A stretch of 64,000 bases of DNA from Gordonibacter urolithinfaciens. GTDB taxonomy: Bacteria > Actinomycetota > Coriobacteriia > Coriobacteriales > Eggerthellaceae. Both the position numbers and the translations under genes were made by a program. The notes below the pieces were generated by a model. It was not told where the DNA came from, searched no databases, and saw nothing but the letters and a program-made list of their open reading frames with translations. This document shows positions 19,867 to 23,207 of the stretch, piece by piece. The stretch spans positions 1,240,001 to 1,304,000 of the forward strand of contig NZ_LT900217.1 in the NCBI RefSeq assembly GCF_900199375.1, in the 5' to 3' direction. Within the stretch, counting starts at the first letter, position 1, and each line of letters begins with the position of its first letter.

Positions 19867-20223
19867 CTATTCAACGCCTTTTCCCCTCGCCTCCACGCCC
19901 ATCTCGTCGAGCACCTCGCCACCCCATTTGCACATGGCGTTCAGCACCGGAGTGAAGCTGCGGCCGCGCTCGGTGAGCGAGTACTCCGTCTTGGGCGGCA
20001 CCTGATGGTACAGCTCGCGGTGGAGCATGCCGTCGGCTTCCAACTCGCGAAGCTGCTGGGTGAGCATCTTGGGCGTGGCCTGGGGCATGAGCCGCTGCAG
20101 CTCGCCGAAGCGCAGCACGCCGTGCTTGCTCAGGTGCCAGAGTATCAGCACCTTGTGCTTGCCGCCCACGATGTCGATGGTCGCTTCGACGGGGCAATGG
20201 TAGGCATCTGGGCAGGTTTTCAT
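19867..20223 (-). CDS. HxlR-family transcriptional regulator
   Basis: A 118-residue winged-helix regulator of the HxlR family: the N-terminal CPDAYHCPVEATIDIVGGKH is the family signature with its conserved Cys, followed by LILWHLSKHGVLRFGELQR, the recognition helix PQATPKMLTQQLRELEADG, and VPPKTEYSLTERGR. Such proteins often sense electrophiles through the N-terminal cysteine. AAAGGAG precedes the ATG. It is divergent from a nitroreductase gene 147 bases away, and the shared gap carries a candidate operator. Confidence 0.92.
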   Translation of the reverse strand: MKTCPDAYHCPVEATIDIVGGKHKVLILWHLSKHGVLRFGELQRLMPQATPKMLTQQLRELEADGMLHRELYHQVPPKTEYSLTERGRSFTPVLNAMCKWGGEVLDEMGVEARGKGVE

Positions 20224-20277
20224 GGCAGCGCTCCTTTGCGGCGGGCCTTCGGCGGCAAGCCCTTGCTTTCCTTTTCG

Positions 20278-20303
20278 GTAGTATATTCCAAAATAGTGCC
20301 TAC
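20278..20303. promoter_or_regulatory. Candidate HxlR operator in the hxlR-nitroreductase gap
   Basis: An imperfect AT-rich palindrome with outer GTAG...CTAC and inner TATT/AATA arms. It overlaps the position expected for both divergent promoters. Confidence 0.4.
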
Positions 20304-20370
20304 TTGCTTGTCCGGTAGCGGCTTCTATCATGAAAGGAGAAACGAACCCGTCCGAGAGAAGGAGCATCCC

Positions 20371-20883
20371 ATGTCGTTTACCAACCTTGCCAAGAAGCGC
20401 TGCTCTATCCGCGCCTACGATCCCGACCCCGTGGAACCGGACAAGATCGCCGCCATCGTGGAGGCGGCCCACGTCGCGCCGAGCGCCGCGAATCGCCAGC
20501 CCGTGCGCCTCATCCAGGTGGAAAGCGCGGAAGGGCTCGCGAATCTCGGAAGGTACGCGAACCTTTACGGCGCGCCGCTCGCGTTCATCGTGTGCGCAGA
20601 TGCCGAGCGCGCTTGGAAGCGCCCCGTCGACGGCATGGTCTCCACCGCCATCGACGCCTCCATCACCTGCGACCACATGATGATCGAGGCCACAGACCTG
20701 GGCCTCGGCAGCGTGTGGATCTGCGCGTTCGACCCCGCCGGCGTGCGCGAGGCGTTCAACCTGCCCGCCTCGCTCGTGCCGGTGAACATACTGGCCGTGG
20801 GCCACGCCGCCGACGAATGGAAGAGCCCCGAACGTCACGCGGTCGAGCGCATCCCCGTGCAAGAGCTGGTGACGAAGGCGTAG
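20371..20883 (+). CDS. Nitroreductase-family FMN oxidoreductase
   Basis: A 170-residue short nitroreductase. KKRCSIRAYDPDPVEPDKI is the FMN-contact N-terminal segment, APSAANRQPVR binds FMN/phosphate, and GLGSVWICAFDP is the conserved Gly-rich strand; GHAADEW near the end is also typical. It would use NAD(P)H to reduce nitroaromatics or quinones; the physiological substrate is unknown. AGAAGGAG precedes the ATG. Divergent from HxlR, which probably controls it. Confidence 0.9.
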   Translation: MSFTNLAKKRCSIRAYDPDPVEPDKIAAIVEAAHVAPSAANRQPVRLIQVESAEGLANLGRYANLYGAPLAFIVCADAERAWKRPVDGMVSTAIDASITCDHMMIEATDLGLGSVWICAFDPAGVREAFNLPASLVPVNILAVGHAADEWKSPERHAVERIPVQELVTKA

Positions 20884-21070: not shown

Positions 21071-22441
21071 CTATCTTTCCCGCAGCACACCGCGCGAGCG
21101 CGACCAGCGGCGCAGGTAGACGCCGCCGATGATCGCGGGAATCACGGGCGAGGCCGCCTGCGCCACGAAAATGCCCACGTAGCCGAAGCCGAGCGCGCCC
21201 GAGAGCAAAAACGCCAGGCCGAAGCGCACGGCGAACGCGTCGATGAGCGAGTTCGCCAGCACGAGCCGCGGCGAGCCGGCCCCGAGAGCGAACGAGTCGA
21301 AGCTGTACATGGCCGCGTAGAACAGGCCGTTCACACTGCACGTGATGCGCAGGTAGAGCACGGCGATGTCGAACGGCGCGCCCTGCGTGAGGCCGTAGAG
21401 CCCCACGATGGCCGGCGCGAGCAGCTGGATGAGCACCTGGATGCCCAGCGTGACGCCGATGTTGAAGCGCGCTCCCAGCCGCGCGACGTCGCGGGCGCGC
21501 GCGAGCTCGCCGGCGCCGGCGCACTGCGCGGACGCCGTGGTGATGGCCTGGCCGATGGCCCAGCAGGGCAGCCCCGCGATGGTGCTTATTTGCAGCCCCA
21601 CGCCCGCCGCTGCGGCAACGTCCACGCCATAGCGGTTGAGCATGCCGGTGACCAGCGCGTACGACAGGTTCACCACCGCCATCTGCACGGCGGAGGGCAC
21701 GCCGACCGAAAGCACCGCGCGCACGTCGGCAGCGAAGCCGCCCGCGAGAACGTTGCTCCCAAGCACGCGCCCCGCCGCGAAGCGCCGCCGCACCAGCGCG
21801 AGCGCGAGCAGCGCCGAGAGCCCCTGCGCCGCCACGGTGGCCACCGCCGCGCCCGGCACGCCCAGGCCGGCCGGGCCCACGAGCACCAGGTCGAGCGCCA
21901 CGTTCACGAACGTCGCCGCACCCACCAGCAGAAGCGGCGTCCACGCGTCGCCCTGCGCTTTGAGGAACGCGGCCGCGGCGTTCATGAGGAACGGCCCGAC
22001 CGCGCCGCAACAGAGCACGGTCGTGTAGGCCACGGCCCCGTCGAGCGCCGCCGCGGGCACCGCGTTCGCCGTGAACGCCGGCCGCGCGAGCAGCGTGCCG
22101 GCCGCAGCGATGCCCGCAGATGCCAGCAATGCCACCAGGAGCGTGGCCGCGTAGGCCCGTCGCTGCGCGCCCACGTCGCCCGCGCCCACCGCGCGCGCCA
22201 CCACCACGCCGCCTCCGGCCGAAAGGCCGATGACGAACGCGTTCACCAGGAACACGGCGTTCACCGCGTTGCTCATGGACACGAGCCCCACGTCGCCCAC
22301 CACCTGGCCGACCACCGCCATGTCGACGGCCTGGTACACGTACTGCAAGATGTTCACCGCCATGAGCGGCAAGGCAAACGAGAGCAGCTGCCGGAACAGC
22401 GGCCCCTCGGAGAAGGAAACGGTCGATGAAGAAAAAGCCAT
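21071..22441 (-). CDS. MATE-family multidrug/organic cation efflux transporter
   Basis: A 456-residue protein with about 12 transmembrane segments in two related halves. FALPLMAVNILQYVYQAVDM, then AVNAVFLVNAF and AQGDAWTPLLLVG are typical of the DinF/NorM superfamily (prokaryotic MatE domains at about 18-175 and 240-400). It probably exports cationic or amphipathic compounds using Na+ or H+. An 11-bp terminator hairpin and a sigma-70-type promoter lie about 90 and 300 bases upstream on the same strand, so expression may be decided by read-through of a leader RNA. Confidence 0.9.
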   Translation of the reverse strand: MAFSSSTVSFSEGPLFRQLLSFALPLMAVNILQYVYQAVDMAVVGQVVGDVGLVSMSNAVNAVFLVNAFVIGLSAGGGVVVARAVGAGDVGAQRRAYAATLLVALLASAGIAAAGTLLARPAFTANAVPAAALDGAVAYTTVLCCGAVGPFLMNAAAAFLKAQGDAWTPLLLVGAATFVNVALDLVLVGPAGLGVPGAAVATVAAQGLSALLALALVRRRFAAGRVLGSNVLAGGFAADVRAVLSVGVPSAVQMAVVNLSYALVTGMLNRYGVDVAAAAGVGLQISTIAGLPCWAIGQAITTASAQCAGAGELARARDVARLGARFNIGVTLGIQVLIQLLAPAIVGLYGLTQGAPFDIAVLYLRITCSVNGLFYAAMYSFDSFALGAGSPRLVLANSLIDAFAVRFGLAFLLSGALGFGYVGIFVAQAASPVIPAIIGGVYLRRWSRSRGVLRER

Positions 22442-22526
22442 AGGTCACCTCGGAGGATCGGAATGCGAAAACGGAAGGAGGCAGGGGCTCGCGACGGCCG
22501 CAGCCACGCGATGCGCCCAGCGCATG

Positions 22527-22560
22527 AAAAAGCGCCGCGGACGAAGCCATCCGCGGCGCT
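22527..22560 (-). terminator. Intrinsic terminator of the MATE leader RNA
   Basis: An 11-bp perfect stem (AGCGCCGCGGA and its complement) with an 8-base loop is followed by four to five T residues on the minus strand. Confidence 0.8.
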
Positions 22561-22731
22561 CAAGGTTCCCGGCATCCCGGCATCGACGACAAGGCGTGCC
22601 CTTAGGCAGCGCGCCTCCCGATGCCGATGGTCCTGTCCGTCCCTGCTCCGTGCGATGCTTCATCGGCGATCACGCACAGAGCGGCAGCCCTGCAAAGTAT
22701 CATTGGTTCCCCCAACGAGGTGGTTGCAACG
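22527..22731 (-). ncRNA. Probable leader RNA (attenuator or riboswitch candidate) of the MATE gene, or an independent small RNA
   Basis: A consensus promoter (22738-22766) would start transcription near 22731, and an intrinsic terminator ends it at 22527, giving a transcript of about 205 nt, 86 nt short of the MATE start codon. Predicted stems include CGTTGG/CCAATG, a 10-bp near-perfect stem GCTCTGTGCG/CGCACGGAGC, CGATG-AAG-CATCG (mutually exclusive with part of the previous loop) and GGCATCG/CGATGCC. By eye it does not fit TPP, FMN, SAM, cobalamin, Mn2+, ZTP, guanidine, 6S, SRP or tmRNA consensus. Confidence 0.55.
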
Positions 22732-22737
22732 CCGGCC

Positions 22738-22766
22738 AGCATACCGCGCCAGCCGGGTCGCGTCAA
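22738..22766 (-). promoter_or_regulatory. Sigma-70-type promoter of the MATE leader
   Basis: On the minus strand TTGACG (22761-22766) and TATGCT (22738-22743) are separated by exactly 17 bases, a near-consensus housekeeping promoter. Confidence 0.7.
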
Positions 22767-22925: not shown

Positions 22926-23063
22926 CTTGCTTTCGAGCGACTACCTGCTTTTCGCCACGCCGCCCCCGCTCGATTTATCGCGAACTGTTTCTTTCATTTG
23001 TTGTCATAGATACCTGGCTTCGTCCACCGCATGGAAGGAGAGCGTCGTCTCCGGGCTTGAAAA

Positions 23064-23111
23064 GCTAACGATCGTTTGCTAAATTGCTTCCATTGGCTAA
23101 CGTTCGTTAGC
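23064..23111. promoter_or_regulatory. Two copies of a TetR-type operator
   Basis: GCTAACGTTCGTTAGC (23096-23111) has perfect 7-bp arms, and a second copy, GCTAACGATCGTTTGC, lies at 23064-23079 (32 bases upstream). They precede the membrane-protein/TetR pair, the expected position for autoregulation. Confidence 0.55.
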
Positions 23112-23207
23112 TTTACGAGAGAAAGAGAGCACCATGACGACGACGGCTCGGCAGGATCGAAGGCCGCATCCCCTCGCAAGGGCTCGCGCGGGTTCGCGCT
23201 GTTCATG

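Follow-up and report, generated by a model that had tools for sequence, protein, structure and literature searches.

What decides whether transcription proceeds into a MATE efflux pump gene of Gordonibacter urolithinfaciens? The gene lies on the minus strand of the window analysed here, a stretch of 64,000 nucleotides to which all coordinates refer. From its letters alone, the DNA in front of the gene had been proposed to hold a promoter, a structured RNA with mutually exclusive stems and a terminator, and to act as a riboswitch or an attenuator.

Layout of the leader

The elements of the locus, in the order of transcription, are as follows.

22738-22766, minus strand: sigma-70-type promoter, TTGACG-N17-TATGCT, located by sequence scan
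22709-22713, minus strand: Shine-Dalgarno sequence of the leader ORF, GGGGG; homologues have GGAGG, AGAAGG, AGGA or similar, judged by eye
22602-22703, minus strand: leader ORF of 33 codons, MILCRAAALCVIADEASHGAGTDRTIGIGRRAA, stop included, with third-position bias in codons 2-8
22674-22682, minus strand: 5' arm of hairpin P1, GCUCUGUGC, which a ribosome positioned near codons 4-8 is predicted to mask
22645-22673, minus strand: antiterminator strand (loop and 3' arm of P1), for which 24 pairs with the terminator are predicted in the window sequence
22645-22653, minus strand: 3' arm of P1, GCACGGAGC, with 3 of 9 pairs changing on both sides among 21 distinct rows
22577-22626, minus strand, limits approximate: spacer hairpin P2, CGGCAUCG/CGAUGCCG, predicted to remain formed in the antiterminator state
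22527-22561, minus strand: intrinsic terminator, hairpin and T-run, 13 pairs with 100% of cells paired in 14 leaders
21071-22441, minus strand: regulated gene, encoding a MATE efflux transporter of 456 amino acids (Pfam MatE, 109.7 bits)

The promoter and terminator of the original prediction are both present on the MATE strand. The -35 element TTGACG (22766-22761) and the -10 element TATGCT (22743-22738) are separated by a 17-nt spacer, a position that would have the transcript start near 22731. The terminator hairpin at 22561-22530, which a simple terminator scan missed, has a Watson-Crick core of 11 bp, or 13-14 pairs counting G-U; the T-run at 22531-22527 comes right after it, and the MATE start codon, ATG 22441, follows about 85 nt downstream. 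The strongly structured RNA of about 205 nt that had been described there was recovered as well: the 207-nt leader folds with -100.9 kcal/mol against a mean of -85.3 kcal/mol for shuffled sequences (z -3.5), and 0/200 shuffles were as stable. The product of the gene scores 146.8 bits against the NCBIfam model matE, slightly below the cut-off of 147.4.

No common riboswitch had seemed to fit the leader, and the same picture emerged from Rfam, riboswitch and T-box models included: there were 0 matches at the gathering score in the window, and a lax threshold also yielded no family. A resemblance to uup RNA (RF03060) over 22645-22682 was rejected at 22.0 bits, far below the gathering score of 36.8. 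The original prediction had overlooked an upstream ORF (uORF) at 22703-22602, which begins with ATG 22703 and has its own Shine-Dalgarno sequence. Judged by sequence, the locus thus appears to have a translated leader ORF upstream of the terminator, and a predicted intrinsic terminator precedes the regulated gene in the window as in the homologues described below.

Conservation of the leader and signs of translation

A search with the leader DNA matched 10 of 100 genomes, the own genome included, with one spurious partial match (L010). The RNA model R1 matched 16 of 138 genomes of the family, 14 of which, again counting the own genome, carry true leaders; the low-scoring matches L025 and L026 were rejected once their sequences were read, and a further one, L027, was left out of the true leaders. 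A pattern scan of genome contigs returned 59 loci, 8 of them with a strong R1 score. Homologues of the MATE protein at E<=1e-60 occur in 23 of 137 family genomes, the own genome among them, and all 23 are preceded by the leader (14 found by R1, nine by reading upstream). In these nine, the short ORF begins M-K-L-C-I-G (MRPLCIG in one) and is accompanied by a terminator-like hairpin, identified by eye in L097. In one homologue match (L092, in genome G129) there is an in-frame TAA, possibly at a site near the gene end or in a broken copy.

Across the class, the MATE search matched 26 of 396 genomes and added four outside the family. Related leaders were found at L128 and L129, which belong to families f10 and f4 of the same order; L130, where the contig ends inside the MATE gene, was excluded from the leader count, and no leader was seen at L134, a MATE fragment. 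The leader and the start region of the MATE gene are near-identical in L128 and L129, although the two belong to different families, which suggests horizontal transfer between families. A second model, R2, matched 140 of the 396 class genomes at E<=1 and reached E<1e-8 only in the known 23; the next seven loci retrieved (L158-L164) were read and rejected as leaders, and L128 and L129 were not recovered by this search. A tblastn search of plasmids with two leader peptides gave no match.

The own genome has eight other MatE genes. A filtered R2 search of this genome found nothing else above 20 bits, the remainder being three weak matches of 19.6 bits and less. We read 350 nt upstream of each of these genes, with guessed start codons. 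Upstream of L168, about 240 nt from the guessed start, there is a strong terminator-like hairpin, and this gene may have an attenuator of its own; two weaker terminator-like hairpins lie upstream of L165.

In 23 of the 25 leaders, a promoter site scoring 9-10/12 is located 32-37 nt 5' of the uORF. In L104 a 9/12 site lies 72 nt before the uORF, and the same scan gave no good site in L105 (6/12). With its structure conserved among MATE-leader homologues and no Rfam match, the element stands as a candidate new regulatory RNA, as had been proposed.

A start codon with a Shine-Dalgarno-like stretch was recognized by eye in 25/25 leaders; the start is ATG or GTG, and TTG in L128 and L129. The peptide reads M-[KI]-L-C-[RI]-[GA]-x-A over codons 2-8 in most leaders. 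Leu-Cys is present in 23 of the 25 peptides, one codon later in L097, while L128 and L129 have no Cys at the codon-4 site and contain IG[TA]AP within the peptide. Over codons 2-8 of the 14 close leaders, 6/7 third positions but 3/14 first and second positions are variable (Fisher p 0.009), and for all 23 family leaders the figures are 7/7 and 6/14 (p 0.015). Because variation falls mainly at third positions, these codons look translated. The bias is gone in codons 9-20, the part that forms P1 (variable columns 4, 2 and 3 by codon position in 13 leaders), as expected if RNA pairing governs this part. A one-base insertion in L007 (genome G004) destroys the frame after codon 11 and shortens the ORF to 14 codons, with P1 and the terminator intact, and the ORF of L105 ends after 13 codons; therefore only the N-terminus of the peptide appears to be constrained.

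Predicted alternative pairings and their dependence on ribosome position

The covariance analysis of homologous leaders that had been suggested at the outset came out in favour of P1. Over its nine modelled pairs, 88.4% of cells are paired in the 21 distinct rows, and its covariation score was reached by 0/500 shuffles; the number of pairs that change on both sides, three, was reached by 61/500. Most of the terminator hairpin can in turn pair with the loop and 3' arm of P1. The mutually exclusive stems of the original prediction are thus also predicted here, the decisive alternatives being P1 and an antiterminator that extends over most of the terminator.

In the divergent leaders, the P1 loop and the terminator change together. 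When the P1 segments of six of these leaders were matched with the six terminators in all 720 ways, the true assignment scored best; with seven leaders, 3/5040 assignments are equally good, the true one included. Measured leader by leader, the complementarity is modest: 3-64/500 shuffles do equally well, and better pairing is often found in GC-rich windows elsewhere (0-107 of about 600); by raw energies, some segments, those of L097 and L101, do not prefer their own terminator. The 14 close leaders are too alike to reveal covariation of the antiterminator, which did not exceed that of shuffles. A contact of the P1 loop with the terminator loop alone had been considered as well; 11-255/1000 mononucleotide shuffles were as good, and this weaker contact was replaced by the full antiterminator.

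That a promoter and a strong terminator bound a discrete RNA of about 205 nt would also suit a terminated leader with a function of its own, as an antisense or small RNA, with constitutive, low read-through into the pump gene. We consider this extremely unlikely: linkage to MATE in 25 leaders, a translated-looking ORF and co-evolution of P1 with the terminator would all be unexpected for a trans-acting small RNA.

The effect of a ribosome on this balance was computed as the cost of forbidding the terminator, with the leading edge of the ribosome moved along the leader in 4-nt steps. In 25/25 leaders the cost is lowest with the 5' arm of P1 under the ribosome, which then stands at about codons 4-8. 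In all 23 family leaders the minimum, 0.0-6.4 kcal/mol, falls at a leading edge 24-40 nt from the start; in L128 and L129 it falls at 48 (2.2 and 7.2 kcal/mol), and P1 is shifted about equally far. For the window leader, the cost is 9.7-17.9 kcal/mol at leads of -8 to 20 and 40 to 100 and drops to 3.4 kcal/mol with the P1 5' arm covered. In eight representative leaders, the cost falls further below the median than in 48, 50, 50, 50, 47, 50, 50 and 45 of 50 shuffles, with a combined p of about 2e-5 over seven of the eight; the bare minimum was matched by 9, 0, 2, 2, 26, 3, 11 and 5 of 50 shuffles in the same leaders.

The minimum cost is 1.0 or more in 23/25 leaders, so that the terminator usually wins at equilibrium and the attenuator model relies on co-transcriptional order. 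Among the leaders listed, only L020, L097 and L103 have the antiterminator as their minimum free energy structure at the tested position. We also computed, for a transcript ending at the terminator loop, how often the terminator 5' arm is captured by the P1 segment. Among the 14 close leaders, capture is 0.33-0.83 with the P1 5' arm covered versus 0.00-0.35 without a ribosome; the window leader gives 0.56-0.57 with the arm covered and 0.0 both at lead 20 and in the absence of a ribosome. Values at lead 62 are zero by construction and carry no evidence. Capture is weak in L098-L103 (0.00-0.25) and reaches 0.55 in L128 even without a ribosome. The computations thus place the antiterminator and the leader-ORF hairpin as mutually exclusive and the former as exposed by a ribosome at a particular position, weakly so in L098-L103.

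A riboswitch, in which a small molecule binds the P1 region or the leader and sets the terminator while the ORF is incidental, might account for the stretch TCGCCGATGAAGC in the P1 loop, which is invariant in the 14 close leaders even at third positions. MATE genes are, moreover, known riboswitch targets. Such a switch is nevertheless very unlikely here, given that no Rfam family was reached, that codons 2-8 vary mainly at third positions and follow a start codon with a Shine-Dalgarno-like stretch in every leader, that the P1 loop changes along with the terminator in the divergent leaders, and that most leaders are predicted to adopt the terminator state when no ribosome is present (L128 being the exception in the capture test). 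Of the two readings originally offered, the attenuator is well supported by computation and the riboswitch is not, because the conserved element consists of a translated-looking uORF and alternative helices whose balance is predicted to shift with ribosome position.

By the toeprint convention, the leading edge of a ribosome lies about 16 nt from the first base of the P site. The modelled stall zone would accordingly comprise about codons 4-8, and in L128 and L129 about codons 10-11, the I-G of IG[TA]AP. The stall zone overlaps the conserved L-C-[RI]-[GA]-x-A or IG[TA]AP, so the peptide motif and the structural requirement coincide.

A ribosome waiting at a hungry codon rather than on a drug could operate the identical RNA mechanism, and Cys4, the sole conserved special codon, would be the place; 23 of the 25 peptides contain Leu-Cys. 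When the A site holds Cys4, the front of the ribosome would reach about 22, where the cost is falling: it is still high at 20 and has partly dropped by 24, to 1.4-9.9 kcal/mol in the 23 family leaders, which is compatible with a wait at Cys4. The cost minimum lies further on, however, at 24-40; codon 5 is Arg or Ile, L128 and L129 lack Cys at this site, and a pump would be an odd target. No leader peptide contains the run of one amino acid that marks a biosynthesis attenuator. The missing codon run and the switch of codon 5 between Arg and Ile make amino-acid starvation an unlikely signal.

Proposed mechanism and relation to known systems

We conclude that the leader is probably a ribosome-mediated transcription attenuator: ribosome stalling would release the antiterminator and so switch the MATE pump on. 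This reading, modelled throughout, is based on the conserved architecture, the translation signature, the covariation of P1, the dependence on ribosome position and the co-evolution of the pairing strands, all of them computed. The transcript would begin near 22731 and its 33-codon ORF would be translated. If the ribosome completes the ORF or fails to initiate, the loop and 3' arm of P1 would be covered or locked in P1 and so unavailable, the terminator would form, and transcription would end before the pump gene. A ribosome stalled at about codons 4-8, on L-C-[RI]-[GA]-x-A, would instead occupy the 5' arm of P1, leaving the loop and 3' arm free to pair with the emerging 5' arm of the terminator and on into its remainder, and RNA polymerase would read into the MATE gene. 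We infer both the stalling itself and that the pump relieves the stress behind it.

Drug-inducible arrest peptides of the erm, cat and msrD type show drug-dependent arrest at a fixed codon, and in the present leaders it is the conserved peptide motif that overlaps the predicted stall zone. Classical amino-acid attenuators such as the trp and his leaders follow a 1:2 / 2:3 / 3:4 pairing logic. The proposed mechanism shares this logic, with the stalled ribosome on segment 1, as in Rli60-ilv (PMC8079631). In contrast to the classical systems, it has no regulatory codon run, its target is a pump, and the pairing of the antiterminator extends past the 5' arm to most of the terminator hairpin.

The likeliest signal would be a ribosome-targeting drug, by analogy with three systems: bmrB (PMC4191407), Rli53 (PMC8079631) and toiL (PMC12121999). 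Another inhibitor of early elongation could cause the stall in its place. In bmrB-bmrCD of Bacillus subtilis, antibiotic-induced read-through needs translation of the leader, and a leader ORF, alternative stem-loops and an intrinsic terminator precede a multidrug transporter, as they do here. As far as the two can be compared by description, bmrB-bmrCD differs in its ABC transporter, 53-amino-acid leader, terminator inside the ORF and control by AbrB (PMC4191407), whereas the present leader serves a MATE pump, has its terminator downstream of the ORF and belongs to a different lineage. In Rli53/lmo0919 of Listeria, lincomycin-stalled ribosomes are reported to cause read-through into the resistance gene, with a short ORF that likewise overlaps the anti-antiterminator/antiterminator (PMC8079631). 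That ORF encodes three amino acids and the gene an ABC transporter; in the present model the ribosome stalls at codons 4-8, and the ORF itself contains the antiterminator strand. The toiL uORF of E. coli senses ribosome-targeting antibiotics through RNA refolding, but its targets are translation and Rho-dependent termination in a toxin-antitoxin operon rather than an intrinsic terminator (PMC12121999).

The mechanism is thus of a known kind, and the RNA family and the leader peptide are new as far as we searched. Among the literature matches listed, with subscription papers largely outside the scope, there was no MATE attenuator of this type, and none of the literature searched named both Gordonibacter and riboswitch. 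We know of no earlier ribosome-sensing attenuator for a MATE pump. It is conceivable, and we offer it tentatively, that M-[KI]-L-C-[RI]-[GA]-x-A-[PL] represents a new class of drug-sensing nascent peptide, one that halts the ribosome when a specific gut compound, or one of a narrow set, is present. The same bases would then encode the peptide, P1 and a near-complete complement of the terminator, in what would be the first ribosome-sensing MATE attenuator, kept across the Eggerthellaceae and perhaps spread horizontally to other families.

If the attenuator reading is correct, stalled ribosomes would induce a pump of these gut Eggerthellaceae that is then not simply constitutive, and its leader peptide would offer a ready sensor with which to search for the drug or metabolite responsible. 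Ribosome-mediated attenuation would also be extended to MATE pumps and to the Eggerthellaceae lineage.

Two further features flank the locus. Downstream of the MATE gene, at 19870-20883, genes for an HxlR-type regulator and a nitroreductase adjoin on opposite strands. On the other side, the region 23056-23119 contains two 17-nt palindromic sites, GCTAACGATCGTTTGCT and GCTAACGTTCGTTAGCT, which are 88% alike, lie 32 nt apart and precede a small ORF and, from 23600 onwards, a gene of the TetR family; from their sequence and position, they are possible TetR operators.
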